Shown one piece after another: positions 34,784 through 53,640 of a DNA stretch of 64,000 bases. Under the pieces are notes generated by a model. That model did not search any database, had not been told where the DNA came from, and saw nothing but the letters and a program-made list of their open reading frames with translations. Position 1 is the first letter of the stretch, and each line of letters opens with the position of its first letter. Source of the stretch: Sphingomonadales bacterium (GTDB lineage Bacteria; Pseudomonadota; Alphaproteobacteria; Sphingomonadales; Sphingomonadaceae); contig JAIXPC010000011.1 of assembly GCA_027486415.1 (NCBI GenBank), positions 107,411 through 171,410 on the forward strand, read 5' to 3'. A program made the position numbers and the translations under genes.

Positions 34784-34868
34784 GCGGGCGTGGTGGAATT
34801 GGTAGACGCAGCGGATTCAAAATCCGCCGCCGCAAGGCTTGTCGGTTCGAGTCCGACCGCCCGCACCA
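34784..34868 (+). tRNA. tRNA-Leu, anticodon CAA, carried by the element
   Basis: An 85-nt class II tRNA with a perfect acceptor (GCGGGCG/CGCCCGC), anticodon stem GCGGA/TCCGC and loop TTCAAAA. The anticodon CAA is at 34818-34820. The T-arm is GTCGG-TTCGAGT-CCGAC, and CCA is encoded. It lies 60 bp after the integrase and has the same anticodon as the tRNA the element interrupts, with a clearly different body sequence. The loop differs from the att core at position 32 (T instead of C). Confidence 0.95.
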
Positions 34869-35116
34869 CCTTACAAAGCAGGATCGATCAGGCCGTTGCA
34901 CATCGGCCCGATCATGCGCTCAGGCGGGGTTCAGAGACCGAACGGGATCGCCGCGCCTGCCGCGAAATGCTCGTGGAGCCAGGGGCATGGTGGCGACCCG
35001 GCGGCGCGGACGCGCCGCAGCCATCGCACTGAAAATATTTGGCAACTTAGGCCATCTGTCCTACCAATACGCACTGGATTGCCAGAGCAGAACATTGAAC
35101 CGGCGTGGGGGTACGT

Positions 35117-36892: not shown

Positions 36893-36896
36893 GCGC

Positions 36897-39488: not shown

Positions 39489-39503
39489 CGGCGGCAGACT
39501 AAG

Positions 39504-39653
39504 CTACTCCCGCCGTCGCTGATCGAGGCGGCGCAGGGTCTCGCGCCGCCAGCGCAGGGCGTTTGCCCAGCGGCAGCAGGTGCAGCTCGTGGTAAGGGTG
39601 ACGTGCAGCAGCGCGCTCGCGATCAGGTCAAGCAGTGAGGTCAGTATTCGCAT
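39504..39653 (-). CDS. Small protein of unknown function
   Basis: A 49-residue protein (MRILTSLLDLIASALLHV...) with one hydrophobic N-terminal helix and an Arg-rich tail. A strong AGGAG site lies 6 bases before ATG 39653, which is the main support. A pair of cysteines (SCTCC) follows the hydrophobic stretch. It is convergent with res and unrelated to any family I know. It may be a small membrane peptide. Confidence 0.5.
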   Translation of the reverse strand: MRILTSLLDLIASALLHVTLTTSCTCCRWANALRWRRETLRRLDQRRRE

Positions 39654-40304
39654 CGGGTTCTCCTTTTCGGGTCGCGCGGCATGCGCAACCGTCCGGGAAT
39701 GACCGGCAGGCACGTTGAGACGGAGCCGTCACAGGCCGAAGCCCACCGGGGATGATGCTGCACGACCAGGAAGCACATCGCCTTGCACGGCCCGTTGGGT
39801 CTGTCACCACTTCCCCGGCGGTTGCCGCTGCCCGCGTCGATGCAAGAGAAGACGAGATGCATGGCCTCACTGCCCTTGGACTGGAGCCCGCGTGCGAAGC
39901 CATCCTTGACGCCATGGTGCACCTGATGCTGGAGTAGCCAGAGCTGCACGATGCACCCGCGCAGGGGTAGCTGGACGTCACAAATGCGTTGGCGTTGCCC
40001 GCCCTGCGGTGGAGTTAGGGCTGATTGCCAGGCAAAAAGCCCACGCCCCTGATCGATGGCGCATGCTGTTCGGCTGATGGTCTGACATCCTGACCCGTAG
40101 AAGGGGCTGGGCTGAGGCCTGTCCCTCCTTCCGCCATCCCTGAGATTGAGCCGCGAATCTGGCCGGGTGCGTCCCCCGGTCAACAGGCTGCCCGCTCCAT
40201 TCGCTACGCTCCCATGTTGCCTGTTCTGCCTGCGGCTGACCGCGTGCCTATGCCCTCCGGCCTTTTCCTTCGCGTCCTCAGGAACAGCGAAAGGAGATCA
40301 GGAC
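39654..40304. other. 650-bp stretch without a supported gene
   Basis: Between the small gene and ardC. Short frames exist on both strands, such as a 61-codon frame at 39752-39937 (+), but none has a clear ribosome-binding site or a recognisable product. The final part contains the strong AAGGAGATC site of ardC. It may hold promoters for both flanking genes. Confidence 0.5.
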
Positions 40305-41222
40305 ATGCCCAGCACCAGCACTTCCCGAACCGATGTCTACGAAGCCATCACCAACCAGATCATCACCGCCATCGAGGCCGGGGCAGGCTCCGGCAAGGTC
40401 CAGCTTCCCTGGCACCGTAGCGGGGCATCCATCACCCGCCCGGTGAACATCGCCAGCAAGAACCCCTATCGCGGGGTGAACACCATCGCCCTCTGGGCCG
40501 CCGCCGATGCGCACGGCTACGAACACGGCATCTGGGGCACCTACCGCCAGTGGCAGGAGCGCGGAGCCCAAGTCCGCAAAGGTGAGAAATCTTCCCTCAT
40601 CGTCTTCTACAAGCAGTTCGACCGCGACGACGACGCGGCCACCGACGCCGGGGGTGATGACGACGCGAACGGTCAGCGCCGCTTCATGGCGCGGGCGTCC
40701 TACGTCTTCAATGCCGCCCAGGTGGATGGGTACGAGCCAGACGCTGCCGCACCGGACGCGCAGCCCATCGATCCCATCGCCGAGGCGGACCGGCTGGTTG
40801 CCGCCACGGGTGCTACCATCCGCATCGGCGGCGAGGAAGCCTACTTCGCCCCCAAGGCCGACTACATCGCCATGCCTGCGCAGCACTGCTTCACCGGCAC
40901 CGCCACCAGCAGCGCCACGGAGGGCTGGTACTCCACCCTCCTACACGAGCTGACGCACTGGAGCGGCCATGAATCCCGCCTGGCGCGGGAGTTCGGCAAA
41001 CGCTTCGGTGACGATGCCTACGCCATGGAAGAACTGGTGGCCGAGCTTGGCGCAGCGTTCCTCTGCGGCGATCTTGGCATCACCGCCGAGCCACGGCCCG
41101 ACCATGCCGCCTATATCGGTCACTGGCTGCGCATCCTGAAGGGCGACCGCAAGGCGATCTTCACCGCCGCGAGCGCCGCCAACAAGGCGGCGGAATATCT
41201 GCGGGCATTCAGCGAAAGCTGA
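40305..41222 (+). CDS. ardC: ArdC-like antirestriction protein with zincin metallopeptidase domain
   Basis: The 305-residue protein has the N-terminal ssDNA-binding part of ArdC (NPYRGVNTIALW, GTYRQWQERGAQVRKGEK). A zinc protease-like motif His214-Glu-Leu-Thr-His218 lies in LLHELTHWSGH, with a later glutamate in EELVAELGAAF. Plasmid ArdC protects incoming single-stranded DNA against restriction. Here it accompanies the mobilization genes and would help transfer to new hosts. ATG 40305 has AAGGAG 9 bases upstream. An acidic DDDAATDAGGDDD insert interrupts the N-terminal part. Confidence 0.9.
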   Translation: MPSTSTSRTDVYEAITNQIITAIEAGAGSGKVQLPWHRSGASITRPVNIASKNPYRGVNTIALWAAADAHGYEHGIWGTYRQWQERGAQVRKGEKSSLIVFYKQFDRDDDAATDAGGDDDANGQRRFMARASYVFNAAQVDGYEPDAAAPDAQPIDPIAEADRLVAATGATIRIGGEEAYFAPKADYIAMPAQHCFTGTATSSATEGWYSTLLHELTHWSGHESRLAREFGKRFGDDAYAMEELVAELGAAFLCGDLGITAEPRPDHAAYIGHWLRILKGDRKAIFTAASAANKAAEYLRAFSES

Positions 41223-41272
41223 ATGCTTCAACCCGTTCAATTAGGTTTTCGTATCTGCTCTCCGATGCAAGC

Positions 41273-42121
41273 TCAGCGTAATGCGCCAACAAACACCATA
41301 CTGCACTGATTGCTTCTACTATCGTCTAAATCATACTCAGCCACTGTGGGATCAGCTGCAGTAAGGCAAGGCCCAGCGTCTGTTGAGCTACCCCCACGAA
41401 GAGCCTCGACCGAACCGCTCCCTGGTCTCCCATCATCCATCTTTACATCGAGATTCCAAGCTTCCGGAGCAGAAAGCACGCCACCGGACCACGCTTCCAG
41501 ACCAGAAGTGGGAAATAGCCACAGGGAGTTGATATAATAAGGCGAAGACGGAACACTGACATAATTGCCATAGAACTTTTGTATAGCGGCATTCCAACCC
41601 CCCACGTTCTCAGTATTCCAAAAACCTCGTGCAACTTTGGATAAAGGAACATTCCATCCACCGCGCTGTCTCGGCATGTCGGACGTGTATCCACTGAATC
41701 CGCCAGCAGCTGCATATGTCCCAGAAAAACTGCCTTCAATTAGTCCTGCGTTCGTAAGATGTTTCCAGAACAAGTAAGGATCATATTCGCTATGATGTAA
41801 TTGGCCATCACCATCGCCATTGCAGGTGGCAAGGCCCGTTTGTACCGTATTGCGGCAGGTCGCATCGTTCCCAGTTGAACCGGCAGCGATGCCCCAGAAT
41901 GCAGTGGCGTTCGTCATGTCGCCGGGCAGCGCAAAATACTTATCCCGGAAGGTCTGCGTCGCCGTCACCCAGCGGCTATACTCTGTACTCACCGCCCGCA
42001 GCTCCGCCGCGCGGATGAGCGCCTGCCCACCAAGGATGCCGCCTGTCAACAGACCGAGAATGACGAGCACAATTGAAAGCTCGACAAGGGAGAAGCCAGA
42101 CTGCAAACGCGACAACTTCAT
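41273..42121 (-). CDS. Lone type IV pilin / pseudopilin-like protein
   Basis: The N-terminus has a textbook class III signal: short basic MKLSRLQSG, then FSLVELSIVLVILGLLTGGI with the cleavage glycine before Phe and the conserved Glu5. The rest (about 240 residues) is a globular head with six or more cysteines and an EF-hand-like loop, NGDGDGQLHHSE. No prepilin peptidase, ATPase or platform gene lies on the element, so it would depend on the host pilus or secretion machinery. The gene is A/T-richer than its neighbours. Its role may be adhesion, uptake or surface modification. Confidence 0.8.
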   Translation of the reverse strand: MKLSRLQSGFSLVELSIVLVILGLLTGGILGGQALIRAAELRAVSTEYSRWVTATQTFRDKYFALPGDMTNATAFWGIAAGSTGNDATCRNTVQTGLATCNGDGDGQLHHSEYDPYLFWKHLTNAGLIEGSFSGTYAAAGGFSGYTSDMPRQRGGWNVPLSKVARGFWNTENVGGWNAAIQKFYGNYVSVPSSPYYINSLWLFPTSGLEAWSGGVLSAPEAWNLDVKMDDGRPGSGSVEALRGGSSTDAGPCLTAADPTVAEYDLDDSRSNQCSMVFVGALR

Positions 42122-42191
42122 GTTTCGGCAATTTACCGAAATCAGAACATAGTGTGAACATAAATTTTCGTATAGTTGGCGAAAGCCCGAT

Positions 42192-42737
42192 CTATAGTCC
42201 CATCTGTGGCCCTCCTTCCGGCAGTCCGAGGCGGCGGATGGACCGTATCCACGGTCCCGCATGGCCATTCGGCCAGACACTGGCGGCATATTCATGCAGC
42301 GCCAGCACCGAGCCGGATTGCAGGTGGCGGGCAAGCTCAATCAGCCCTTCGCCCTCGATCATGAATTGCCGAACGCCAAAATCGAGCGACAGCATCGTGT
42401 CGCCGATATATTCGACCGCGATCAAATGCGGGTAGCTGACCTGCCAGCCCACCCACAGGCCCGAGCGTTCCTCGAATCGGCGCAGATCGAGCATCATCGC
42501 CGGGCGGCTGCGGCCCCGCTGCAACTGCCATGGCCGATACTGCGCCGGATCGATAGTGGGGCCAGCTTCGGCTTCATCCGGCTCGTGTTGTAGGCCGGAT
42601 GCACCTCCTGACGGCTGGCCCTGCGGCGGGGGCGCGGTGCCCCCGCCGGGCCTTCGGTTGGATTCAAACAGTTCACGCCAATTGCCCATCTTGTTCGGGT
42701 CGGGCTCCCAGCCTTTGGGGTGATGGTAGTCGCTCAT
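42192..42737 (-). CDS. Unknown protein following the relaxase
   Basis: A 181-residue protein with a hydrophilic, proline/glycine-rich N-terminus (residues 1-60) and a folded C-terminal part (WQVSYPHLIAVEYIGDTMLSLDFGV). Its ATG lies one base beyond the relaxase stop, so it is translated with the relaxase. I do not recognise a family. Its position suggests an accessory mobilization protein, with no catalytic motif visible. Confidence 0.68.
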   Translation of the reverse strand: MSDYHHPKGWEPDPNKMGNWRELFESNRRPGGGTAPPPQGQPSGGASGLQHEPDEAEAGPTIDPAQYRPWQLQRGRSRPAMMLDLRRFEERSGLWVGWQVSYPHLIAVEYIGDTMLSLDFGVRQFMIEGEGLIELARHLQSGSVLALHEYAASVWPNGHAGPWIRSIRRLGLPEGGPQMGL

Positions 42738-42738
42738 G

Positions 42739-43704
42739 TCATCGCTCCATGTCGGGGGTTGGGTTGGGAGAATGGGACAGGTCGCGCTCCGGCGGCGCGC
42801 GGCTGGCGGGTTGCAGCCGCTCAATCTGCCGCTCGAACCAGGCGTAGAACCGCTCCGCCACCTGCGGCGGCGGATTGTTCCCGGCGGCCCGGAAGGCGTC
42901 CTTCGCGGCCTGTTCCACGGCACGGTAATGCCGGGCCATCTGGAAGTGCCCGAACCGCTCTTTCATGACGCCGTAGAGTTCCTTCATGTGCCAGGCCATG
43001 CGCAGGGCCGGTTCCGGCAGGCGCGACAAGCCCCGCTCCAGCAGCGACCGCCGATCAATCCGCGCCGCCGACCCGGCTCGCTCCAAAGCGGCGTTGGCGA
43101 TGCTCTCCCAATCCGCGCGGCACCGCTCGAAATAGGCCGGGCAGTTCCAGCTATCTTCGTTGCTCACGACCATGACGGGTCGACCATCTTCGTAGGTCCG
43201 GCCCGTCGGGTCCGGCACCCAGTCATGCCGTGACTTGGGGCCGAACCCGGAAGGCGTAAGGGGGCGCATCGTCAGCAGCACATGGGCATGGGGCTGTTCC
43301 AGCCCGTCGGAAGCGACGGTATTGTGCCAGGCCACATCGGCCACCATGCCCCGGCTGACGAAGCTCTTGGTGAGGTAATCCCGCACGACGCGGATCCGCT
43401 CCGCCGGATCGAGCTCGCGCGGGATCATGATGCGCAGCTCGCGCGCGGTCTGCGCATCTTTGCGTTTCTCGTGCGCTTCGACTGTGTTCCACAGCGCCTC
43501 GCGGGACGCGCCCCGGACCCAGTCCGGGGCATCGGCGGGAAGCAGGATTTCGGTGTGCTCAACCCCGCCCCGCCGGGAATAGTCATGGGTGATGTTCTGC
43601 CGCACATCGTGCAGACGCTCGCCTGCCCGATAGGCGGCAGCAGCGACCACCGAACGCCCACCGGAGCGTTTAATGATCTGCATCGACCAGCTGAATAGCG
43701 CCAT
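42739..43704 (-). CDS. MobA/MobL-type (MOBQ) relaxase
   Basis: The 321-residue nicking enzyme has motif I Tyr25 (AAAAYRAGERLHD), where MOBQ relaxases such as RSF1010 MobA have their catalytic tyrosine. The metal triad is His127 with His139-Ala-His141 in EQPHAHVLL. It would cut oriT and lead the strand into a recipient. There is no fused primase or helicase domain. An oriT-like hairpin lies just upstream, and the coupling ATPase is in the next block on the same strand. Confidence 0.92.
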   Translation of the reverse strand: MALFSWSMQIIKRSGGRSVVAAAAYRAGERLHDVRQNITHDYSRRGGVEHTEILLPADAPDWVRGASREALWNTVEAHEKRKDAQTARELRIMIPRELDPAERIRVVRDYLTKSFVSRGMVADVAWHNTVASDGLEQPHAHVLLTMRPLTPSGFGPKSRHDWVPDPTGRTYEDGRPVMVVSNEDSWNCPAYFERCRADWESIANAALERAGSAARIDRRSLLERGLSRLPEPALRMAWHMKELYGVMKERFGHFQMARHYRAVEQAAKDAFRAAGNNPPPQVAERFYAWFERQIERLQPASRAPPERDLSHSPNPTPDMER

Positions 43705-43775
43705 CTAACCCACCATCGCCACAGCCGAAGCCATGACCTGATTTGCGTGGTGAGCCTGAGTGAACGCCTTTAGGG

Positions 43776-43818
43776 GCCTAAGTGTGCACTTATACGTTGC
43801 AAGCAACGTGCACCTTGC
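43776..43818. other. Candidate origin of transfer (oriT)
   Basis: The sequence holds CTAAGTGTGCACTTATACG followed by the hairpin ACGTTGC-AA-GCAACGT. The first part resembles the nic region of MOBQ plasmids (TAAGTGCGCCCTTA type), and the arrangement recalls the Ti-plasmid oriT. It lies 72 bp upstream of the relaxase start in a 244-bp gap with no gene. The nick position is not proven. Confidence 0.6.
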
Positions 43819-43948
43819 CGGAGGCGTTTCAGTCTGTCTCATATTAGCAAATTCAGACATATTCGGCCACTTATTCATGGGGTGGCGAGGCCCCGACGCG
43901 GCGACTTGTCGTGCGCTGCACAACGGCGTGTCGGGGCCGGTGGGGTGC

Positions 43949-44479
43949 TCAGCGGGCAGCATCGAGCACCGCGCGGCTATGCGCCGGAAGGGCGGCATAG
44001 CAGTCGGCCAGCGACAGCGCCGGCAGCACCGGGCGCGTGATGGCCAGACGCACCGGGATGGCGGTGCGGGCTCGGTGGCGTGGCCTCTGCTTCCAGGCGG
44101 CGTAGAAGCCCCAGAGCATGAGCCACAGGAATGCGCCGAGGATCAGGCCGCCCACCGCAGCCCCAAGCCCGACCTGATCGCTGGCCGCTCCGGCAACCAG
44201 CAGGAGGGCGCATCCCAGCATCCCGGCCACATGCGCGCCGCGCAATTTGGGGGCCGGGTTGGGGTTCATGGCGTCCCATTCCCGCTTCCATTGCAGGTAG
44301 TCCCGCCGCGCTTCGCTGGCCTTCATGACCCGGCCCATGAAGACCAGCATGACGACCGCCAGCCACCATGCTTCGCTGTTCTGCGACCAGGCATAGAGGG
44401 TGGCCAGCGTGCCAAGCGCGACCGGGACGACCACCAGCGGGTGGCCCATCAGCATGCTCTGGGTAGAGGGCTTCATCAT
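43949..44479 (-). CDS. Small membrane protein in the mobilization operon
   Basis: A 176-residue protein with four hydrophobic segments: residues about 14-31, 36-50, 84-100 and 104-125. No enzymatic motif is seen. Its ATG overlaps the stop of the coupling-protein gene. The location suggests a membrane partner of the coupling ATPase, but the family is not recognised. Confidence 0.72.
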   Translation of the reverse strand: MMKPSTQSMLMGHPLVVVPVALGTLATLYAWSQNSEAWWLAVVMLVFMGRVMKASEARRDYLQWKREWDAMNPNPAPKLRGAHVAGMLGCALLLVAGAASDQVGLGAAVGGLILGAFLWLMLWGFYAAWKQRPRHRARTAIPVRLAITRPVLPALSLADCYAALPAHSRAVLDAAR

Positions 44480-46044
44480 TGCACGAACTCCGCCATGAGG
44501 GCGTTGCCGCCCGAGGCCCGGAAGACCCGGCCCGCCTGGAACCAGACCGCAGAGACGCGGTTGCCGTTGGCGGGGCCGCCGGTTTTCAGCATGTGGGCGA
44601 AGGCCCCCGGCTCGATCAGCCAGTCCATCTGTTCGCTGTAGCCCTGGCTGACATTGCTGGACTGGCCATGGCCACGGTTGCGGCCCCGGCTGTCATTGCC
44701 GCCGACCGAGCCGCCGCTGCTCCAGTTGCTGGAGCTGCTGCTGCCCTGCTGGCTGGAGCTGGTGCCGCCACCGCTGCCCCAGTTCTGCCCCCAGCTCGTG
44801 CCTTCGCCCATGTTCAGGCCGACATTGCTGGTGCTGCCGTGGCCTTCACTGAAATTGGCGCGGGTGTGCAGGGTGCGGCCCAGCGTCTTGGCCGCCCATT
44901 CGTTCGTCTCCGCACAGGCATTGTTATGCCAGATGCGCGTCGCAAAATTGCCCACCAGGTGATGCACCCGGTCACGGGCATGTTCGCCGCCCATGCGGGC
45001 ATAGAAGGTGGGCAGCGATTGCGTCAGGAACACCGTACAGGCGCGTGAGCCCCGGCAGGTGGACAGATACTCGGCATCGTAGCTGTTCACGAAATACTGG
45101 GCTTCATCGGCCCAAAGGAACACCGGGCGCACCTGCTGTTCCGGTGGCAGCGCGTTGCGCGCCAGCACCGCCCGCTGCCAGACATATTTGAACAGCTGCT
45201 GGGCGATGATGCCGTCTTCATTGAGCGTCAGCGCGGGCAGGTTCAGCAGGATGATCGCCCCATGGAACGTCAGTTCCGGGACAAAGCTTGTCTGGCCGCA
45301 GAACAGCCGGGCCAGCCAGCCATGCTGAAACCGGTCCAGCGCCGTCGTCAGGGAAATGACGATGTTGCCGCGCGTCTTGGGGTCCAGCGTCGCAAAATCA
45401 TTGCGCCAGTAGCTGACCATGCGCTCGCCTGTGGCGTCGTCCAACACGCCCGCCGCGCGGGCAAAGCACTCGCAGAAGAACGACCCGCGCTGCCATTCGG
45501 GATCATGCATCTGTTCAGGCGATTGCGGTGCCGACCGCACAAAGCGCAGCAGGTCCGCAATGCGCACCGTGCCGGTTGCGGCATAGAGCACCGGGATCGT
45601 GTGGCGCGTCACCTGCCGGGTGGTGTCTTCCCAGAACTGTTCGGAGCCGCGCCCCGGCGATGGGCTGGCCTGCCGGGACATCTCCAGCACCCGCATCACG
45701 CATTCCGTGACGGTATTCAGCCCCGTAATGCCCTGCCGGGCCAGCTCTGCCGCAACAAAGTTGTAGCTGTATGGCCCGTCCGCCGTGATCTCGATCAACG
45801 AGGCGCTGCGGCCATGTTCCGTGCAAAGCTGCCGCCAGTGGTCGGCCTCTTCGGGCTTGGCGGCCATGATGACACCGCCCATGCCTGCCCGCAAAAAGGC
45901 CCCGGCAAGCGCCTTGCCGGAGCCGGAGGTTTTACCGCTGCCAATCCCGCCAGTGACGAGCACGCCCTGGCAGGCATCGCGCAGGGTGAAGGCATCGTCG
46001 CGGGAAAGGTGCAGGAGCTTCGTATCAAGATCGAACTGGCGCAT
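44476..46044 (-). CDS. VirD4/TraG-like type IV coupling ATPase
   Basis: The 522-residue ATPase has Walker A GGIGSGKT (about residues 32-39) and Walker B FLWADEAQYF. A TraG/TraM-recognition-like domain (CRGSRACTVFLTQSLPTFYARMG) follows. A Ser/Gly-rich low-complexity stretch lies at residues 430-475. It would link the relaxosome to a conjugation channel. There are no obvious N-terminal membrane spans, so membrane attachment may come from the 176-residue membrane protein encoded next. ATG 46044 has GGGAGG upstream. Confidence 0.88.
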   Translation of the reverse strand: MRQFDLDTKLLHLSRDDAFTLRDACQGVLVTGGIGSGKTSGSGKALAGAFLRAGMGGVIMAAKPEEADHWRQLCTEHGRSASLIEITADGPYSYNFVAAELARQGITGLNTVTECVMRVLEMSRQASPSPGRGSEQFWEDTTRQVTRHTIPVLYAATGTVRIADLLRFVRSAPQSPEQMHDPEWQRGSFFCECFARAAGVLDDATGERMVSYWRNDFATLDPKTRGNIVISLTTALDRFQHGWLARLFCGQTSFVPELTFHGAIILLNLPALTLNEDGIIAQQLFKYVWQRAVLARNALPPEQQVRPVFLWADEAQYFVNSYDAEYLSTCRGSRACTVFLTQSLPTFYARMGGEHARDRVHHLVGNFATRIWHNNACAETNEWAAKTLGRTLHTRANFSEGHGSTSNVGLNMGEGTSWGQNWGSGGGTSSSQQGSSSSSNWSSGGSVGGNDSRGRNRGHGQSSNVSQGYSEQMDWLIEPGAFAHMLKTGGPANGNRVSAVWFQAGRVFRASGGNALMAEFVQ

Positions 46045-46076
46045 GGCGCTGCCTCCCTGGGAGGGGGAGCCCAGCA

Positions 46077-46292
46077 TCACCGATCGATGCCGTGCTCCCG
46101 CTCCGGTTGGGGCCTGCGATCCGCAGGCATTTCCCACCCTGCCTGCTGGGCAAAGGTGGACTCACGATCCGGCGAACGCGTCCGGTCAAACGGGCGCGGC
46201 GTGACCGTCCGCCCGAACCAGCCTTCTTCGATCAGCTTCTGCCGCACATCGGCGATGGCGGAGCCGAACGCGTCCGCGAACCAGTCACGCAT
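46077..46292 (-). CDS. Small unknown protein upstream of the coupling ATPase
   Basis: A 71-residue hydrophilic protein (MRDWFADAFGSAIADVRQKLIEEGW...) with a possible amphipathic N-terminal helix and an Arg/Pro-rich tail. It overlaps the end of the zinc-ribbon gene by 8 bases and precedes the coupling gene by 32 bp. No family recognised. Confidence 0.58.
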   Translation of the reverse strand: MRDWFADAFGSAIADVRQKLIEEGWFGRTVTPRPFDRTRSPDRESTFAQQAGWEMPADRRPQPEREHGIDR

Positions 46293-46509
46293 CGAAGACG
46301 TAGCCGCAGTCCATGCAGCGACTATCCTTGCGCAGCGCATCGACCGCACGGATGGCGACCGCGCCGAGACCGGCGAGGATCGACAGGCGCGGGATGCCGA
46401 GGGTCTGGACCGCCTGTGCTGCCTGCATGGTGCGGTCGATATGGATGGGGTCCAGCCGGTTCGAGGTCACATTCGGCGACTGGCAACGAGGACAGGTACA
46501 GAGATGCAT
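46285..46509 (-). CDS. Small zinc-ribbon protein
   Basis: A 74-residue protein with CPRC at the N-terminus and CMDC at the C-terminus, a likely zinc site. A hydrophobic stretch (SILAGLGAVAIRAV) lies between them. The ATG at 46509 has AAGGAA upstream. It heads the run into the coupling gene. The partner is unknown. Confidence 0.65.
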   Translation of the reverse strand: MHLCTCPRCQSPNVTSNRLDPIHIDRTMQAAQAVQTLGIPRLSILAGLGAVAIRAVDALRKDSRCMDCGYVFDA

Positions 46510-46628
46510 CGCTAGAGTTCCTTTCTGTTGAGAAGAGCACGCGGCGCAGCCGGGGGCCGTCGCGGGCACAGCACTGCGCCGCGTGAGGGTGGTTCGCTTG
46601 TGGTTGAGGGTTGCGGCTGGCGGCGGAC

Positions 46629-46823
46629 TTACGCGTCCGCGTTACTGGCCCCGCTGAGGAACGCCCCCAGCTTGGCACCAAGCGCCGCGCCCGGTCCCGG
46701 CAGCAAAATGCCGCCGATCACCGCGCCAAACAGCGTGGCACCCGCCGTGATCGCAATGCGCTTCACGGCGGCATCGAACACATCGTCCGAACTGGGCGAT
46801 GCGGTAGTGGAAGTATCGGTCAT
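46629..46823 (-). CDS. Small glycine-zipper membrane protein
   Basis: A 64-residue protein with a strong ribosome-binding site (GGAGG). After a 25-residue polar start comes a hydrophobic, glycine-spaced stretch (AGATLFGAVIGGILLPGPGAALGAKLGAFL). This would form one or two membrane-inserted helices. It could be a channel-like or toxin-like peptide or a mobilization accessory. No family assigned. Confidence 0.6.
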   Translation of the reverse strand: MTDTSTTASPSSDDVFDAAVKRIAITAGATLFGAVIGGILLPGPGAALGAKLGAFLSGASNADA

Positions 46824-47003
46824 CATCACCTCCATCATGGTGGCCAGAACCAGACCAAGCGGGGGCTTGCTCACCCAACAGGGGGGTGAGGCGGAAAGTT
46901 ACCGCATTGTGCTGGTTTTGGGCAGGGAACCGCTGATTCGGCCCCTGTGATGAGGGTGATGGATTTGGGTCAAATGGTCAATGCATAATCTATAGGCTTT
47001 GCA

Positions 47004-47816
47004 TTATTTTCTGTAGTGCGCTGCCGCATTGATCCGTGCGGCTTCGCGGAGCGCCTCTTGCCCGGTGAATTTTCCAAGGTGCTCTCGGATAGCATCCGAC
47101 CCAGCACTAAGCAGCCGTTCGTTTTGCTCTGCCTTCGTCGGCAGATCAACATCAGCAGGCCATTCGTTGCCGGGGCGGCTAAGCCAATTGGTAATCGCGA
47201 CCGAGAGCTTGGGATCGAGTTTGCGGATGTCGGCACGGGTCAGGCCCTGACCAAGCCATGGACCGTACACGCGTTTTACGAACTCCGGTGGGGTCTCGGG
47301 ACCGCGTAGGCCTTGGAAGGTCTCCGGTGCTTCGATAGGTAGCGCCACGGCTGAAAGGGAACCGCTGATTGAATGAGCAGCATTATGAGCAACCGAAGCG
47401 GATGACATCAATTCAGTCACAAGTTCGATAAATCTTGAGTGGATCGATTTGCGATCCGAATCTGAAATAGGATAGTCATCTAGAATTGCCGAAATTTCAC
47501 GCTTCAAGCGCGTCTGATCAAATTTTTCACTGTTTATTATGGATTCTATAAGATCGCGTTCTTTTGAGGATGTTGATTTCTGATTATCGCTCTTATTTTT
47601 CGTTCTTGCAACACTGATTAGGCCACCTTCTTTGGTACGCTTTGTGGCCCGTCCAATGCCTTTTGCTTCGAATAGATGTTCAAGCGCCTTCATCCTCGCA
47701 GCCGCGTTTGGATCAAGCGTTTCACGCGTTGGGTCGCTCACCGACCTTGGGTTGGCAGCAGTTTTATCGTCGCTTGGCTTTTCCGACTGACTACGAGGCT
47801 GTTCACTTCTGCTCAT
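47004..47816 (-). CDS. Unknown 270-residue protein
   Basis: A hydrophilic N-terminal part (SRSEQPRSQSEKPSDDKT, residues 2-19) is followed by helical charged segments and a C-terminal part with KFTGQEALREAARINAAAHY. No domain, signal or metal site is recognised. Its 5' half is A/T-richer than neighbouring DNA, like other recently gained cargo. It is transcribed alone, toward the coupling cluster. The 180 bp after its stop and the 296 bp before its start show no gene I can support. Confidence 0.68.
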   Translation of the reverse strand: MSRSEQPRSQSEKPSDDKTAANPRSVSDPTRETLDPNAAARMKALEHLFEAKGIGRATKRTKEGGLISVARTKNKSDNQKSTSSKERDLIESIINSEKFDQTRLKREISAILDDYPISDSDRKSIHSRFIELVTELMSSASVAHNAAHSISGSLSAVALPIEAPETFQGLRGPETPPEFVKRVYGPWLGQGLTRADIRKLDPKLSVAITNWLSRPGNEWPADVDLPTKAEQNERLLSAGSDAIREHLGKFTGQEALREAARINAAAHYRK

Positions 47817-48070
47817 GCAGGCACACTTAGCACGTCATAGCGAGCGTTTCACGTTCCCCGAGCATGCAAGAGGCGCAAGTGCTGCCAAGGCAATTTCCCG
47901 TCGCGGCCATCACGGCTTCTGACCGGTGAGCGTGCTGGCACAGCGCCGCCGCCGATCAACCCCATTCGCTTCCGCGCCGTTGGCTTGTGCAGCTCCATGC
48001 CCTGCGGGCGTGCTGGCGCACGGGGTGTGACCAGCGGCTCCATGCGCCGTGCCCTTGGCTCCCCATGAAG

Positions 48071-48089
48071 CCGCGAGATGGTCTCGCGG
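48071..48089. promoter_or_regulatory. Perfect hairpin in the leader of the 70-residue gene
   Basis: CCGCGAGA-TGG-TCTCGCGG, an 8-bp stem with a 3-base loop, ends 23 bases before ATG 48113 and just above the AAGGAG site. It may attenuate or control translation. Confidence 0.5.
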
Positions 48090-48112
48090 ATCATCACCAA
48101 AGGAGCATCATC

Positions 48113-48325
48113 ATGACCACCACCAGCAATCCCGGTCGCAAGCCGACCCACCGCATCTACCGTGTCGTTGGCGAAGGCAAGAACGCCAGCTGGACGCCCA
48201 TCGGAGCCGCCTGGCCCAATCAGGACGGCATGGGCTTCTCCATCACCTGTGATGCGATCCCTCTTCAGGGCCGCCTCGTGATGCGTGTCATCACCGAACG
48301 CACGATGACGGGGGCGGTCGCATGA
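48113..48325 (+). CDS. Small conserved-looking protein of unknown function
   Basis: A 70-residue protein (KPTHRIYRVVGEGKNASW, then WTPIGAAWPNQDGMGFSI) with a strong AAGGAG site before ATG 48113. The fold looks like a short beta-rich domain without cysteines. Proteins with this look occur on alphaproteobacterial mobile elements, but I can assign no function. It is convergent with the DUF6527-like gene. Confidence 0.68.
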   Translation: MTTTSNPGRKPTHRIYRVVGEGKNASWTPIGAAWPNQDGMGFSITCDAIPLQGRLVMRVITERTMTGAVA

Positions 48326-48364
48326 CCGCCCCTTGGGGCCAGCGCTGCCAACTGTTCGGTTGTG

Positions 48365-48817
48365 CTATTTGCCTAGAAGCCAGCGCGTGACGCGTGCGAA
48401 CACTCCGCTGTTCGGGGTAGGTTCTGGATTTGCCGACGGTGCCGGTGCTGGCGAAGGCTTGGGCGTCTCGGGTGCGCCGATATAGTGCCGCTCTTTCCGC
48501 TCGCGATCCATCGCCCGGCCATATTCAATCCGTTGGCGTGACCACTTGTCAGCCCACCGCACGTGGCCACGGCTGAGGACATAATGCGACTGGCACGCAA
48601 AGCTCCAGTTGCCAATCGAGGGGTTGAGCGAAACCGTTTCGCCATCAAAGGTCATCGACCAGTCACGCGGTGAGAAACGGGTATAAACCTCACTCTTGCA
48701 GCCGCAGAAGCAAAGATGAGCGGCAGTGCCAAATTCCACCGACACATAGAGGATGCCATCGTCCAGTTTTTCAGGGAAAGCCTTTACGAATTTATGGGTG
48801 TACGTTGCGCGGCTCAT
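48365..48817 (-). CDS. DUF6527-like cysteine-rich protein, partner of the E1/ubiquitin-like pair
   Basis: The 150-residue protein has a probable zinc site made from CFCGC (Cys36, 38, 40) and Cys75/His78 in FACQSHYVL, around a conserved PSIGNW core. The layout fits a treble-clef-like binding domain. A proline-rich tail (residues 118-134) leads to a basic C-terminus. Such proteins accompany ThiF/E1 genes in bacteria and are candidates for the substrate or ligase role. Its ATG overlaps the E1 stop by four bases. Family assignment rests on memory of the motif pattern. Confidence 0.72.
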   Translation of the reverse strand: MSRATYTHKFVKAFPEKLDDGILYVSVEFGTAAHLCFCGCKSEVYTRFSPRDWSMTFDGETVSLNPSIGNWSFACQSHYVLSRGHVRWADKWSRQRIEYGRAMDRERKERHYIGAPETPKPSPAPAPSANPEPTPNSGVFARVTRWLLGK

Positions 48818-50007
48818 GTCTTGTCCTCATTGGCGATCACATTGCCGCTGATGGCATAGGCCGAATAGTGCTCAACCTTTGGGTCAGTGCGGTAGAAGCC
48901 GAAGTGCTTTTTCCAGCGGATGACCGCCATGGCTGCGTTGAGCGCGTTCAGGTCAGCGATTTGGATGTTCTTCGCGTAGATGTTGTCCTTGCCACCGTCC
49001 TTGAACGAGAGGCGGCGATTGGCACGAACGTGGTCGCGCTGATCGGGAGTACTGGTGGTGATGCACACCAGACCCGTCAGCCCATCATCGTCGATCAGCT
49101 CGACGCCCATACCAACATCGATGAACGGCACACCATGCTGCTCGAAATGCTCCACCAACAGGCGCTTTGCCGTGCCAGAATCCATGCAGATGAACGCAAA
49201 ATCCATGGAACCGATTTGGCCAATCGTATGCTCATCGATGGCAAACGCGTGAGGGACAATGCCCCGATGCATCCGGGAGTAGATGCCAGCGAGATAGTCC
49301 ACTTTCTTCGGCAGCGCCTGCAACTGTTCTGCGCTGGGTGCGCCGGGAGCACGAAATGCATTATGCTGGAGGAAGGTGTCGCCGTCGAAGATCGCTACTT
49401 CCCGGACAGGGGTTTTAGCTACGAGGTCCAGCACATAGGAGCCCGTCCCGCCGACCCCGAAAATCCCAATGCGCGCAAGTTCAAGCTTCCGCATCACATT
49501 GGTAATGCCGACCCGCCCGGAAGCCGTGTCGGCATAGTGGAACGGGGACTCCGGGTCTTCGTTCTCGATGAACCGGTGCGTCTGTGCCGACACATCCTTG
49601 TCGATAGCCTGCGCATGCCGCGAGATCATCGCGATGTAGGTCGTCAACTTGTGGTGATAGTCGCGATAACCGTCCTGCGGCTTGTGCGAGAACGAATGGT
49701 TCACCGTCAGATTCGGACCCAGCACCTGATCCGTGCTGGCATGGCGAAACTTCTCAATGGGCTTGCCATCGCCGTCGCAGGGGTACTCGCCAGCCCACAT
49801 GGCCACATGCGCCGTCACCGGGGATGCCGTCACGTCGCCAGAGATGCAGGACATGTCAGACACCAGCGTGCCCAGGCGAATTTCGCGCTTGCTGTTCACA
49901 TAGGGCACGCCGGTGATGACGAGGTGGCCATGAAGGATGGACAGCTCGTATCCATCCTTCACGATACGGGCGAGGTCGGGGTTACGACTTGTCAGTGGCG
50001 GTGACAT
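48814..50007 (-). CDS. ThiF/E1-like adenylyltransferase with N-terminal extension domain
   Basis: The 397-residue protein has an N-terminal domain (1-165) of a type I recall being called DUF6791. The C-terminal E1 fold carries the ATP loop GVGGTGS (184-190), the FDGD acidic pair (208, 210), Asn216 and Arg219 (HNAFR), and Asp276 in ICMDSGTAKR. Cys315 (GLVCITTS) is a candidate thioester cysteine. It should activate the ubiquitin-like protein encoded just before it, whose last 26 bases it overlaps. The N-terminal domain may stand in for the missing E2. No separate E2 or JAB protease is visible. Confidence 0.85.
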   Translation of the reverse strand: MSPPLTSRNPDLARIVKDGYELSILHGHLVITGVPYVNSKREIRLGTLVSDMSCISGDVTASPVTAHVAMWAGEYPCDGDGKPIEKFRHASTDQVLGPNLTVNHSFSHKPQDGYRDYHHKLTTYIAMISRHAQAIDKDVSAQTHRFIENEDPESPFHYADTASGRVGITNVMRKLELARIGIFGVGGTGSYVLDLVAKTPVREVAIFDGDTFLQHNAFRAPGAPSAEQLQALPKKVDYLAGIYSRMHRGIVPHAFAIDEHTIGQIGSMDFAFICMDSGTAKRLLVEHFEQHGVPFIDVGMGVELIDDDGLTGLVCITTSTPDQRDHVRANRRLSFKDGGKDNIYAKNIQIADLNALNAAMAVIRWKKHFGFYRTDPKVEHYSAYAISGNVIANEDKT

Positions 50008-50314
50008 CGAAAATCATGTCCTTCTTAATACGGGTGGAGCCGCCGGGCTGGAGCGTGCCTTCCTTGTTGGGGCCGGGGCCGTCGCGGAAGGCGACCGTGA
50101 TTTCGATGAACTCGCCAGTTGGCGGGGTATCAAATGCCAGCGCCACGATCTGTTCGTAGGTGACGGTCTTGCCTTCGACGGTCTTTTCGCGCGTGTTCAC
50201 GATGATCGTCGTCTTGCTCTTGCCGCCACCGCCTTTGCCGCGATCTTCATCCTTGCCGTTGCCGTTGCCGTTGCCGTTGCCCTGGCCAGGGTTGTCTTTC
50301 TTGCCGTCTGTCAT
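49982..50314 (-). CDS. Ubiquitin-like protein, multiubiquitin-domain type
   Basis: A 110-residue protein. The first 35 residues are Gly/Asn/Lys-rich (NGNGNGNGK). The rest is one beta-grasp-like unit: IIVNTREKTVEG, VTYEQIVALAF, then IKKDMIFDVTATDKS. The NTR...KTVEG start and F-VTATDKS end match bacterial multiubiquitin proteins, of which this is a single-unit version. There is no C-terminal Gly-Gly, so conjugation through a processed diglycine is not evident. It is the first gene of the operon, and its own promoter region is shared with the HTH gene. Confidence 0.85.
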   Translation of the reverse strand: MTDGKKDNPGQGNGNGNGNGKDEDRGKGGGGKSKTTIIVNTREKTVEGKTVTYEQIVALAFDTPPTGEFIEITVAFRDGPGPNKEGTLQPGGSTRIKKDMIFDVTATDKS

Positions 50315-50349
50315 TGATAAGCTCCTATTCGTGATGGGCGCAACAAAAG

Positions 50350-50420
50350 TGCGCCTACTCCGAACTTAATCTCATGTTGCCATTCTGGTGTCAAGCACAT
50401 AAAATGCGTCTACACCGAAC
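50350..50420. promoter_or_regulatory. Candidate operator: two direct repeats between the divergent operons
   Basis: TGCGCCTACTCCGAAC at 50350-50365 and TGCGTCTACACCGAAC at 50405-50420 match in 14 of 16 bases, with a 55-bp period. They lie in the 137-bp gap between the ubiquitin-like gene and the HTH gene, where an HTH repressor would control both promoters. Confidence 0.6.
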
Positions 50421-50451
50421 ATGTGGAAAACCGACCGACAGGAGCCGTCGC

Positions 50452-50775
50452 TTGCAAAACAACCTTGGGGAGAAGATCCGCAAACTGCGGAAGGAGAAGG
50501 GATTCACGCTCGATAAGCTGGCCGAACTGACCGAATCCAGCAAAAGCTACATCTGGGAACTGGAGAACAAGAATCCGCCGCGTCCGTCCGCCGAGAAACT
50601 GGCAAAGATTGCCGACAAGCTCGGGACTACGATTGAGTTTTTGCTCGATGAGGATGCCGAGGTCAGCCAGGAAGAGGCTGCCGACGCGCAGTTCTATCGC
50701 CAGTACCGAAAGATGGATTCCGCGACGAAGGACAAGATCAGGCAGATGGTGAAGCTGTGGGGCGATGAAGAGTGA
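50452..50775 (+). CDS. XRE-type HTH regulator, CapH-like
   Basis: A 107-residue protein with an N-terminal helix-turn-helix (LGEKIRKLRKEKGFTLDKLA, then SKSYIWELENK) and an acidic/helical tail that could dimerise. TTG 50452 is chosen because GGAG lies 7 bases upstream and residues before it are unlike an HTH. It overlaps the ImmA/IrrE gene and diverges from the ubiquitin-like operon. This is the layout of CapH repressors cleaved by CapP in CBASS. That functional reading is inferred. Confidence 0.85.
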   Translation: MQNNLGEKIRKLRKEKGFTLDKLAELTESSKSYIWELENKNPPRPSAEKLAKIADKLGTTIEFLLDEDAEVSQEEAADAQFYRQYRKMDSATKDKIRQMVKLWGDEE

Positions 50776-51689
50776 CCGAAAACTTTTCGCCGCAGCGCTG
50801 GGCCAACACTCTGACCCTTTTGCTCAATGGTGTGCATGGCACGTCCGCTGAACGCTTTCCGGTCAATGTACCAGAGCTGGCGAAAGAGTTTACGCGCAAT
50901 CGCTTTCCAGACGATCCCGTGGCGATGGTGAAGGGCGCCAGCCTGCCTGGGTTTGATGGGGCACTCTACAAAGCCCCTCCCGGCAAGAAAGGCTGGGGCA
51001 TCATCTACAACGATGGCATTGCCTCAAAAGGGCGGATCAACTTCACGATTGCCCATGAGTTCGGCCATTACCTGGTGCACCGGCTCCAGTTTCCGGACGG
51101 CATTGAATGCGCGCCGCAGGATATGATGCGCTGGGACAGCGAATATCGGCAGATGGAGGCGCAGGCGAACGAGTTTGCGGCCAGTCTGTTGATGCCGCTT
51201 GATGATTTTCGTCGTCAGATCGATCCCAAACACAAGCCGACCCTTGATGACCTTGGCGAATGCGCGGTGCGTTATGGTGTGTCGCTTGTCGCAGCCACGC
51301 TCCGCTGGCTGCAATACACCGAGCGCCGGGCCGTGCTGGTTGTATCCCGCGATGGGTACATTCTCTGGGCGCGCTCAAGCCCGACGGCGCTACGCACGGG
51401 GGCCTATTTCAAGACGGCGGGCAGGCCGCCCATACCGGTTCCGGATTCGTCCCTCGCAGCGCAACCGGGCTTGCTGACCAACAGCAAGGGCCAGCTAGAA
51501 CATGATGCCGATGCGTGGTTTGCTGAGCCATGCGAAGAGATCGCGCTCGCCTCCGACCAGTATGACTTTACCATCTCCCTGCTGCATCTTGAGCGGTTTA
51601 TCCGGCCAAGCCGGTTCGAGGACCCGACGGAGGACGAAGATTCCTTCGATGTGATGACTCGCCGCATGGATGGCAACGGACCGCGCTGA
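50772..51689 (+). CDS. ImmA/IrrE-family zinc metalloprotease, CapP-like
   Basis: The 305-residue protein has His95-Glu96-Phe-Gly-His99 (FTIAHEFGHYLVH) and a third ligand glutamate, probably in MEAQANEFAASLLMP (about residue 134). These are complete zinc-protease motifs. ImmA/IrrE enzymes cut XRE-type repressors after DNA damage or ssDNA accumulation. Its GTG start overlaps the HTH stop, so the pair is produced together. The C-terminal half (about 160-305) probably senses the trigger. Confidence 0.92.
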   Translation: MTENFSPQRWANTLTLLLNGVHGTSAERFPVNVPELAKEFTRNRFPDDPVAMVKGASLPGFDGALYKAPPGKKGWGIIYNDGIASKGRINFTIAHEFGHYLVHRLQFPDGIECAPQDMMRWDSEYRQMEAQANEFAASLLMPLDDFRRQIDPKHKPTLDDLGECAVRYGVSLVAATLRWLQYTERRAVLVVSRDGYILWARSSPTALRTGAYFKTAGRPPIPVPDSSLAAQPGLLTNSKGQLEHDADAWFAEPCEEIALASDQYDFTISLLHLERFIRPSRFEDPTEDEDSFDVMTRRMDGNGPR

Positions 51690-51732
51690 GGGTGGCGTCG
51701 GTCGCGTAGCCCCTACCACCTCTCTTATTAAT

Positions 51733-51748
51733 GACCATTTTAATGGAC
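51733..51748. promoter_or_regulatory. Candidate HipB operator
   Basis: GACCATTTTAATGGAC is a near-palindrome (CCATT/AATGG arms) located 43 bp before hipB. A third half-site AATGGCC follows at about 51772. HipB-type antitoxins bind such inverted repeats to repress their own operon. Confidence 0.4.
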
Positions 51749-51791
51749 ACTAAATGCTTTTCTGACTATTCTAATGGCCAGGAAGGTCTTT

Positions 51792-52124
51792 ATGCGTACC
51801 ACGCCGCCACTGCCGCTACCCGTCAAGCGCTCCCTGATTAAGCTGGGCGGCGACATTCGTGCTGCGCGCCTGCGCCGCCGCATTACCACGACGTTGATGG
51901 CAGAGCGCGCCTTTATCTCCCGCACCACGCTGCAAAAGGTGGAGCAGGGTGATCCATCCGTTTCGTTGGGGGTTTACGCCACCATCCTGTTCATCCTGGG
52001 CATCAGCGACCGCATCGCCAGCCTGGCCGATCCCGGCACCGACTCCCTTGGGCTGGAGCTGGAAGAAGAGCGTCTGCCCAAGCGTGTGCGGTTATCCGGC
52101 AAGCCGCGTGGGGGCACCCAATGA
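51792..52124 (+). CDS. hipB: HipB-like antitoxin (XRE HTH)
   Basis: The 110-residue protein has an HTH (LGGDIRAARLRRRITTTLMAERA, split as LGGDIRAARLRRR and TTTLMAERAF) and the SRTTLQKVEQGDPSVSLG segment typical of HipB. ATG 51792 has GGAAGG upstream, so ATG 51774 is less likely. It overlaps hipA by four bases. HipB neutralises HipA and represses the operon. Confidence 0.88.
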   Translation: MRTTPPLPLPVKRSLIKLGGDIRAARLRRRITTTLMAERAFISRTTLQKVEQGDPSVSLGVYATILFILGISDRIASLADPGTDSLGLELEEERLPKRVRLSGKPRGGTQ

Positions 52125-53368
52125 GCGACCGCGAAATCCTCGTCTATGTGGATTTGGAAGGCGTCTGCCACCTCGTGGGCCGCCTCTGGGCGCGCCGCAA
52201 CCGTGGTCGCGAAAGCGCCAGCTTTGCCTATGATCCCGCCTGGCTTGCCAACCCGGCCCGCTTCCCGCTGGAGCCTGCATTGATCTTGGGCGCAGGCCCG
52301 CAACATACCCATCAAGGCCGAGCGCTGTTTGGCGCGTTCGGCGACTCTGCGCCCGACCGCTGGGGGCGCAACCTGATCAAGCGCGAAGACCGCAGGCGCG
52401 CGCAGGCCGAAGGGGTTGCCGCGCGGACGTTGGGCGAAGCCGACTTCCTGCTAGGCGTCAGCGACATTGCCCGCCAAGGCGCGTTGCGTTTCAAGGAGGC
52501 AGAGGACGGTCCTTTCCTTGCCGATGGCGATCATCGCACCGTTCCGCCGCTGATCTGGCTGGGTGAATTGCTGCATGCCGCCATGCGCATTGCGGCCGAT
52601 AATGATGATCGTGATGATGGTGATGATGATCTTCGTCTTCTTCTTGCGCCGGGCTCATCCCTCGGCGGGGCACGCGCCAAGGCGTCCGTGCTGGACAATG
52701 ACGGGCAGCTCTCGATTGCGAAATTTCCGCAGCTCGACGATCCCTATCCGGTGATGCAGTGGGAAGCCGTGGCGCTTGACCTTGCGCACCGCGCGGGCAT
52801 CCATGTGCCAACCTGGCGGCTGGAGAATGTTGCCGACCGCACCGCGTTGCTGCTGCGTCGCTTCGACCGTGAAGGCGACGTTCGTATTCCCTACCTGTCC
52901 GCCATGAGCATGCTGGGTGCGGCGGATAATGAGGAGCACAGCTACCTCGAAATCATCGACGCCATCCGTCAGTACGGTGCCGTCCCACAGGAGGATTGCG
53001 CCCAGCTCTGGCGGCGCATCGTCTTCAGTATCCTGATTGCAAACACCGATGACCATCTCCGCAATCATGGCTTCCTCTATGCACCGGGCGGGGGAGGGTG
53101 GCGCTTGTCCCCTGCATTCGACATGAACCCCACGCCGCTCGACGTGCGCCCGCGTGTGCTATCGCTCGCAATCGATGAAGCCGATGATACCGGGGATGTT
53201 CAAGTCGCGCTTGGTATGGCCCGTCAATGCGGGTTGAGGCCAAATGAAGCGCAAGCTATCCTGGCCGAGGTCGAAGCCGCTGTGGCGCAATGGCGCGACG
53301 TTGCCGCGCGCTATGGATTGAGTGCGCGCGAGATCGACCGCATGGCCAGTGCATTTGAACCGGCCTAG
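52121..53368 (+). CDS. hipA: HipA-like serine/threonine kinase toxin
   Basis: The 415-residue kinase has a HipA N-terminal domain (GRALFGAFGDSAPDRWGRNLI), an ATP/regulatory loop GSSLGGARAKA and the catalytic IANTDDHLRNHGFL. The metal-binding segment SPAFDMNP is present. HipA toxins phosphorylate glutamyl-tRNA synthetase or related targets to arrest growth, so this pair would stabilise the element. A GAT-rich codon run (bases 52600-52632) encodes an acidic DNDDRDDGDDD insert. All kinase motifs are intact. Confidence 0.9.
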   Translation: MSDREILVYVDLEGVCHLVGRLWARRNRGRESASFAYDPAWLANPARFPLEPALILGAGPQHTHQGRALFGAFGDSAPDRWGRNLIKREDRRRAQAEGVAARTLGEADFLLGVSDIARQGALRFKEAEDGPFLADGDHRTVPPLIWLGELLHAAMRIAADNDDRDDGDDDLRLLLAPGSSLGGARAKASVLDNDGQLSIAKFPQLDDPYPVMQWEAVALDLAHRAGIHVPTWRLENVADRTALLLRRFDREGDVRIPYLSAMSMLGAADNEEHSYLEIIDAIRQYGAVPQEDCAQLWRRIVFSILIANTDDHLRNHGFLYAPGGGGWRLSPAFDMNPTPLDVRPRVLSLAIDEADDTGDVQVALGMARQCGLRPNEAQAILAEVEAAVAQWRDVAARYGLSAREIDRMASAFEPA

Positions 53369-53488
53369 CGACCCCGAACGGATAATTCCCCTTACGGATC
53401 GGTGTTGAGTGCCAGGCGATTGCGCTGGACACCGGAATCTGCATCTGCGAAGAGGGTGTCAGGCGTGCCGCACTTTTTGTGGGAATCC

Positions 53489-53527
53489 CTTACACAAGTC
53501 TTACACACTTACACAAATCCTTACACA
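53489..53527 (+). repeat. Right arm-type sites: four CTTACACA direct repeats
   Basis: CTTACACA starts at 53489, 53500, 53508 and 53520, in a 39-bp cluster 60 bp from the attR core. The first two have the same 11-bp period as the left-end pair. Probably binding sites of the integrase. Confidence 0.7.
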
Positions 53528-53586
53528 AAATGTGGGCAACGTCTAAAATACCGTTATAGTGCAATAACTTCTCCAACCTATAGGGC

Positions 53587-53595
53587 ACTCAAAAT
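53587..53595 (+). other. attR core
   Basis: ACTCAAAAT matches the attL core. The tRNA-Leu body continues directly after it with CGGATGG, giving back the 3' anticodon stem. Confidence 0.85.
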
Positions 53596-53640
53596 CGGAT
53601 GGAGCAATCCGTGCTGGTTCGAGTCCGGCCAGGGGCACCA
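53587..53640 (+). pseudogene. 3' part of host tRNA-Leu(CAA), displaced by the element
   Basis: After the core come the 3' anticodon stem TCGGA, a variable arm (GGAGCAATCC), a T-arm (GCTGG-TTCGAGT-CCGGC), CAGGGGC and ACCA. CAGGGGC pairs exactly with GCCCCTG at 33283. No 5' half precedes it, so this copy cannot give a tRNA while the element is inserted. Confidence 0.9.

Follow-up and report, generated by a model that had tools for sequence, protein, structure and literature searches.

How might a bacterial ubiquitin-like protein (Ubl) be activated and passed on when the genes beside it encode an E1 but neither an E2 nor a JAB protein? The question is raised by a five-gene locus at 48365-51689 of a 64,000-nucleotide stretch, called the window here, from a Sphingomonadales bacterium (assembly GCA_027486415.1, contig JAIXPC010000011.1, positions 107,411 to 171,410). 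A first-pass annotation had read the locus as genes for a multiubiquitin-type protein, an E1-like adenylyltransferase, a DUF6527-like zinc protein, an XRE regulator and an ImmA/IrrE protease, and these coordinates and identities are supported by the open reading frames (ORFs) and by Pfam and PADLOC matches. Our preferred explanation, to which we give a probability of about 0.55, is a Ubl-activating cassette that is induced by single-stranded DNA and works without an E2 and independently of a cysteine. It would belong to operon type 6e, in a DUF6791 branch related to the Bub operons.

The cassette and its divergent regulators

The analysis confirmed a three-gene operon for the Ubl, the E1 and the DUF6527 protein that diverges from the genes of CapH and CapP, and all five genes are real (Table 1). 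The overlaps that had been described at first sight were found again and amount to 26 nt between the Ubl and E1 genes, 4 nt between the E1 and DUF6527 genes and 4 nt between the CapH and CapP genes. The cassette encodes a Ubl of 110, an E1 of 397 and a DUF6527 protein of 150 residues. In the E1, DUF6791 replaces JAB at the N-terminus.

Table 1. Features of the locus, in window coordinates
Feature	Position	Strand	Match or remark
Ubl gene	49982..50314	(-)	Pfam Multi_ubiq PF14452, 2.4e-14
E1 gene	48814..50007	(-)	Pfam DUF6791, 2.4e-52, and ThiF, 1e-9
DUF6527 gene	48365..48817	(-)	Pfam DUF6527, 5.3e-23
CapH-like XRE repressor gene (helix-turn-helix, HTH)	50452..50775 (probable start; ORF open from ATG 50374)	(+)	PADLOC capH, 7.7e-31
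CapP-like ImmA/IrrE (M78) protease gene	50772..51689	(+)	PADLOC capP, 3.8e-69
Ubl/E1 overlap, 26 nt (3' end of Ubl gene, 5' end of E1 gene)	49982..50007	(-)	E1 ATG within Asp-Val codons close to the Ubl end
Divergent control region	50315..50451		between ubl and capH

A serine tail and a fixed overlap

Conservation was analysed in 109 DUF6791-type loci, consisting of the window, 28 loci from the host's order and 80 from the genome_contigs collection. Since these 80 are the best-scoring of at least 507 relatives, remote members are under-sampled. Nor are the 109 independent of one another, with 91 lying below 90% E1 identity and with L030 and L086 taken as one contig; their ORF starts were assigned mechanically. 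L054, a near-copy of L053, was omitted from the alignments A1-A3, and L031, L036, L047-L049 and L057, where no DUF6527 was called, were omitted from A2. With profiles built here, the Ubl was found in all 109 loci and DUF6527 in 101, counted anywhere in the fetched locus, with Ubl adjacency judged separately; two of the eight loci lacking DUF6527, L031 and L135, stop at or just past the E1.

The window Ubl has one Multi_ubiq beta-grasp domain (residues 36-108) that follows a Gly/Asn/Lys-rich N-terminal stretch of 35 residues. It has no Gly-Gly end, as the first pass had recognised, and its tail reads -ATDKS-COOH. A C-terminal serine is present in 108 of the 109 loci, most often as TDKS (48 loci) or TVQS (22 loci). 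In contrast, the seven separately encoded Ubls of canonical Bub operons with E2 and JAB, L193 included, terminate with TEG (five), TEGSCG (one) or NPGR (one), and the construct BubA(155-229) in the entry 9eav would terminate at a glycine when numbered by the Citrobacter braakii homologue. The register of the Ubl/E1 overlap was identical in 106 of 109 loci. L052 and L055, which have no overlap, both retain the terminal serine, and the value of L130 was left unused, its E1 ORF being without the N-terminus.

Adenylation residues and cysteines of the E1

The first reading of the E1 as an adenylyltransferase agrees with its residues, which predict an intact adenylation site. G184, G186, G187, G189, D208, D210, R219 and K235 are invariant in the 109 loci, T188 is kept in 107 and position 276 is Asp in 105; H67 and Y344 are also present throughout. 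No invariant cysteine was found: C274 is Cys in 67 loci and C77, which lies in DUF6791, in 93. The conserved catalytic cysteine of a canonical cysteine E1 is thus absent from this set. Cys315, which had been put forward as the catalytic residue, was rejected, as this position is Cys in the window sequence alone and Arg in 100 of the 109.

The first pass had also suggested structure predictions. The AlphaFold2 model of the E1 had a mean predicted local distance difference test score (pLDDT) of 88, and its best fold match in the PDB was Citrobacter BubCD (Foldseek E 1.4e-15, ranks 1-8). The 50 listed fold matches were all E1-type chains, MccB and PaaA included. When the adenylation domain was compared by hhalign with the E1 portion in 17 homologues of BubCD, a probability of 99.4% and an E-value of 3.5e-21 were obtained. 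In this comparison Tyr344 (109 of 109) is paired with BubCD Tyr370 (17 of 17), the position mutated to Phe in 9eav, whereas MAFFT aligns Tyr344 with a different BubCD residue that is Tyr in 8 of 17. In a viral fold library, 18 entries matched the model at E<=0.001; the top one was ThiF-like, and none was informative on the N-terminal domain alone. In the E1 tree (FastTree), the 109 DUF6791-type and the 17 canonical sequences are split by one branch with a support of 100; a program warning notes that long branches join there.

E2 and JAB genes beside the cassette

No Prok-E2_E gene or fusion was found in the window between 40000 and 58000, in line with the first pass, which had seen no E2 or JAB gene beside the cassette. 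Profiles built from the 17 canonical Bub loci, whose own scoring of 17 out of 17 is by construction, matched 1 of the 109 DUF6791-type loci for the Bub-type E2 and 2 for JAB (E<=0.01). The only E2-positive locus, L077, also carries a canonical cassette. The genome of the window had no match to PF14462. The DUF6791 branch seems to be without the usual transfer and removal enzymes.

L077 itself comes from an archaeal metagenome-assembled genome (MAG), in which the DUF6791-type and the E2/JAB-type cassettes are located near each other on opposite strands.

A probable CapH/CapP switch

An HTH repressor gene and the gene of an M78 protease with an HExxH motif adjoin the operon. CapP matches the solved CapP (PDB 7t5t) over residues 5-276 at 2.6e-71, and its HExxH motif is HEFGH at residue 95. 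CapH probably starts at TTG 50452 rather than at ATG 50374, since the resulting 107 residues are the length of the homologue annotated in L139, the closest relative found. As in the switch of the cyclic oligonucleotide-based antiphage signalling system (CBASS), the repressor gene is followed by a full-length CapP homologue and both diverge from the operon. Here, however, the pair adjoins a Ubl cassette, as reported for Bub operons in PMC13373217 (EMBO J 2026), which counts CapW or CapH and CapP beside 219 of 544 Bub operons and CapK and CapS beside 59. The identity of CapH and CapP together with this published association supports the reading as a switch. The first pass had implied that the coupling was new; it is instead a member of a published pattern, and an operon type with a non-JAB E1 is also on record (PMC1779556).

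Between capH and ubl, the direct repeats CTAC[AT]CCGAAC occur at 50355-50365 and 50410-50420, 55 bp apart, and the second begins 5 bp past a promoter-like TAAAAT that points to capH. The pair is found with identical sequence and spacing in L139, which was compared separately, and with a spacing of 57 bp in L050. The two repeats are candidate CapH operators. Against this, the best repeat failed to beat all 20 letter shuffles in 11 of the 13 control regions tested, the window and L050 being the only two in which it succeeded.

The profiles, built here and giving classes that contain errors, labelled the regions upstream of the 109 cassettes as divergent CapH and CapP (30 loci), co-directional CapH and CapP (2), an M78-UvrD fusion (22), CapK/CapS-like (8) or M78 alone (13). 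Among the 91 loci below 90% identity the respective numbers were 26, 1, 14, 8 and 12, with 30 showing none. Eight of the 30 divergent loci have a ribbon-helix-helix (RHH) gene and a GNAT-like gene in between. On checking, the 32 CapH and CapP loci comprised 27 with two separate genes and 5 with one fused ORF. The eight CapK/CapS-like labels depend on the C. braakii Bub neighbours, whose identification as capK and capS is based on gene order, gene length and weak Pfam matches. In the class with M78 only, L037 matches just the UvrD query.

The UvrD-type fusion has about 1130-1160 residues and, in L030, M78, UvrD and PDDEXK domains by Pfam. A sigma-70 region-4-like gene was present in 18 loci (L030-L032, L034, L080, L082, L083, L085-L089, L101, L111, L116, L119, L131, L132), and in all 18 the fusion and a gene for a 190-residue protein occur together with it; these are the 18 of 22 assignments that are firm. 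The doubtful ones are L046 (an RNase_H-helicase by Pfam), L068 and L102 (contig ends) and L135 (which also has CapH and CapP). The IrrE(M78)-UvrD-nuclease fusion may be a further DNA-damage switch; a word search of the available text of PMC13373217 did not find 'helicase'.

When the firm labels (27, 18 and 8 loci) were placed on the E1 tree, at least 7 switch changes were needed, compared with 16-26 in 30 label shuffles. The switches therefore follow lineages and yet have been exchanged. Judged by these profiles, CapH and CapP are one among several exchangeable switches on DUF6791-type cassettes. Canonical plasmid Bub operons carry similar ones, namely HTH with ImmA/IrrE, RHH and GNAT with HTH and DUF955, or a UvrD-helicase protein.

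Relation to type 6e and to Bub

In the part of Iyer 2006 on type 6e (PMC1779556), this operon type encodes a Ub-like protein of one to three repeats together with an E1 and a metal-binding protein. At its N-terminus the E1 has either JAB or, in some of the operons, a domain that is uncharacterised; an E2-like domain, considered inactive in part of the cases, is described as well. The window agrees in its Ubl, which has one repeat, and in its E1, whose DUF6791 is unrelated to JAB, and it shares the sporadic distribution, partly on mobile elements; its DUF6527 protein may be the metal-binding component. The identification of DUF6791 with the uncharacterised domain of that paper is made in this analysis. 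The metal signature of type 6e, C-x3-C-x35-38-H-x2-C, is near to C36-x3-C40-x34-C75-x2-H78 in the window, but the order of the residues differs. A CapH/CapP switch, a serine tail and a fixed overlap are not mentioned in the text seen of that paper.

Bub was reportedly defined by Ye 2026 and Gong 2025. The Citrobacter operon (BubCD/BubB/BubA; PDB 9ea5, 9eae, 9eav) shares with the window a Multi_ubiq Ubl, a homologous BubD-like E1, DUF6527 and similar regulators; its Prok-E2_E and the JAB domain (BubC) on its E1 are not found in the window cassette. The E1s of CBASS (Cap2) and Bil are of the ThiF type too, but the PADLOC E1-E2 matches of the window E1 were weak (best 2.7e-5, residues 159-288), and it has no conserved cysteine. 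In a literature search on multiubiquitin and DUF6791, the DUF6791 branch was absent among the matches listed and DUF6527 was unmentioned, which does not establish the branch as undescribed. What the analysis adds are the branch-specific serine tail, the fixed overlap, the lack of a conserved cysteine and the lack of E2 and JAB beside the cassette, and these are the features that merit biochemical attention.

A model for the cassette and its alternatives

By analogy with the published homologues, CapH would repress the cassette until single-stranded DNA activates CapP, which then cleaves CapH. The Ubl and the E1 would then probably be made in coupled amounts, since their genes overlap. The E1 would adenylate the ready-made C-terminal serine, and no processing peptidase would be needed because the Ubl tail is already mature. 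As the E1 has no conserved cysteine and no separate E2 and no JAB stand beside it, we propose that the E1-DUF6791 protein most likely passes the activated Ubl to a target itself, without a thioester. DUF6527 could be a zinc-binding accessory for target recognition or removal. Extended to the whole branch, with the E1-DUF6791 protein alone attaching a serine-ended Ubl without E2 or cysteine thioester, a fixed overlap across bacteria and archaea and damage induction through interchangeable single-stranded DNA switches, the model becomes doubtful. If the E1-DUF6791 protein did transfer the Ubl alone, this would be protein tagging in a minimal form that dispenses with the E1-E2 thioester relay, and a cassette this small should be easy to rebuild in vitro. 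The switches common to both branches and to several immune systems make the DNA-damage control of the family directly testable.

Several observations speak against the proposed cassette. No switch of the types looked for was found in 34 of the 109 loci. E2 families other than the Bub type were sought by Pfam scans that covered 20 neighbouring genes and identified no E2. A host E2 or JAB could act in trans, two matches to PF14464 (JAB) lying on other contigs of the same genome. The serine tail falls inside the E1-start overlap in 106 loci, L052 and L055 being the only ones clearly without overlap, and as it lies inside a conserved 26-nt stretch its conservation is confounded with, and not fully separable from, that of the overlap. 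The hhalign comparison of DUF6791 with 17 Prok-E2_E sequences gave an E-value of 0.065, which is not significant, with 2 of 60 column shuffles equalling the score. This last point touches the alternative of a cryptic E2 (UBC-like) domain in DUF6791, in which case E2 and E1 would form one chain as in the fusions of types 6a-6c reported in Iyer 2006 (PMC1779556). In the E1 model, DUF6791 consists of a helix, four strands, a long loop with short strands and a helix, which is the order of elements in an E2, and the domain contains H67, which is invariant, and Cys77, which is kept in 93 of 109 loci. However, Cys77 is replaced by His, Tyr, Ser or Phe in the other 16, the 50 listed fold matches are all E1-type chains, and the hhalign score of 16.2 lies within the range of 85 decoy families (mean 11.2, standard deviation 2.7, maximum 21.9). 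A global alignment was no better than shuffles, 34 of 60 of which reach its score. Since the profile comparison fails although the element order fits, we do not claim DUF6791 as an E2 and keep this as a rather unlikely rival. DUF6791 as a degenerate JAB was rejected, since its profile did not match that of the JAB domain in BubCD homologues (E 0.53).

Activation might also occur without conjugation: like MccB acting on its peptide, the E1 would convert the C-terminus of the Ubl to a nucleotidyl, amide or cyclised form. The absence of an invariant E1 cysteine and of E2 and JAB genes beside the cassette would fit, as would MccB and PaaA among the 50 best fold matches; both of these proteins also have an N-terminal domain. 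BubCD is nevertheless the best match by fold and by profile and was solved together with BubA and BubB, and Bub is called ubiquitination-like in PMC13373217, which makes an MccB-like reaction improbable. It is more improbable still that the Ubl works mainly by self-assembly, with the E1 and DUF6527 governing assembly instead of target tagging. A solved multi-ubiquitin protein, 9cd2, has the identical TDKS end, but the window Ubl has a single beta-grasp domain and the Ubl ORFs are shorter than 130 residues in 57 of 109 loci. The last alternative concerns the role and is compatible with the thioester-free cassette preferred here: the locus may be a module for stress or for the maintenance of mobile elements and not for phage defence. 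Its neighbours are genes for mobilisation and transfer, a HipBA pair and a restriction-like locus, an E1 relative is encoded in 129 of 72,556 plasmid records, and according to PMC13373217, anti-phage protection by Bub operons has not been demonstrated so far. The same paper reports similar switches on known immune operons, and we regard a maintenance role as possible but less likely than not.

The DUF6527 protein

The model of the DUF6527 protein (pLDDT 86) is predicted to be mostly beta with C-terminal helices. It had no usable PDB match by sequence or fold; 125 fold matches had E<=10, with a best E of 1.1. In 99 aligned sequences, from which two rows of at least 260 residues were omitted, C36, C38, C40, C75 and H78 are retained in 98-99, and C36-x-C-G-C40 and C75-x-S-H78-Y together form a putative zinc site. 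A DUF6527 profile built here matched 15 of the 17 canonical Bub loci, 5 of these 15 having the strict motif C-x-CGC...C-x-SH.

At L036 and L057, an ORF of 466 or 561 residues precedes the Ubl, and an ORF of 212 or 213 residues occupies the usual DUF6527 place. The 212-residue ORF had no Pfam match.

Distribution of the cassette

The 80 genome_contigs loci represent, among other groups, Proteobacteria, Cyanobacteria, Nitrospira, Bacteroidetes, Actinobacteria and Acidobacteria, together with a Paenibacillus and archaeal MAGs. In the 396 genomes of the host's order, DUF6791 was found in 28, Multi_ubiq in 43 and DUF6527 in 48 (46 above the cut-off). Of 29 DUF6791 places in the order, 25 have a Multi_ubiq Pfam match within 4 kb and 23 have DUF6527. 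Among the 45 Multi_ubiq loci, 17 pair with DUF6527 without DUF6791 and 3 have neither, whilst 9 of 49 DUF6527 places have neither partner; this pairing used 49 of 52 DUF6527 places, the three below the family cut-off being omitted, and one Multi_ubiq place per locus.

The closest relative found, L139, lies on a conjugative plasmid of Croceicoccus naphthovorans and carries all five genes, arranged as in the window, with an E1 that is 78% identical. This identity of arrangement is far beyond chance. The idea that the five genes are conserved as a unit holds for this plasmid but not as a rule, as 27 of the 109 cassettes adjoin capH and capP as two separate genes. Among virus collections, none of 50,697 phage records encoded an E1 relative and a Citrobacter Ubl-E2 query found no relative in IMG/VR, where an E1 relative is encoded in 6 of 64 candidate stretches.

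Neighbouring genes

The stretch 34784-53640 of the window contains a tRNA-Leu, a DNA methylase, a ResIII helicase gene, MobA/MobL, a TraG/TraD-like gene, the cassette, hipBA and a stretch similar to a tRNA 3'-end, and looks like a mobile defence island. Its ends are putative, since an exact repeat of the tRNA 3'-end-like stretch (53616-53640) was not found elsewhere in the genome. The hipBA pair, a HipB-like HTH gene and HipA, is located immediately past capP at 51774-53368. At another locus, L045, a gene for a cyclophilin-type isomerase (6224-7282) diverges from the cassette.

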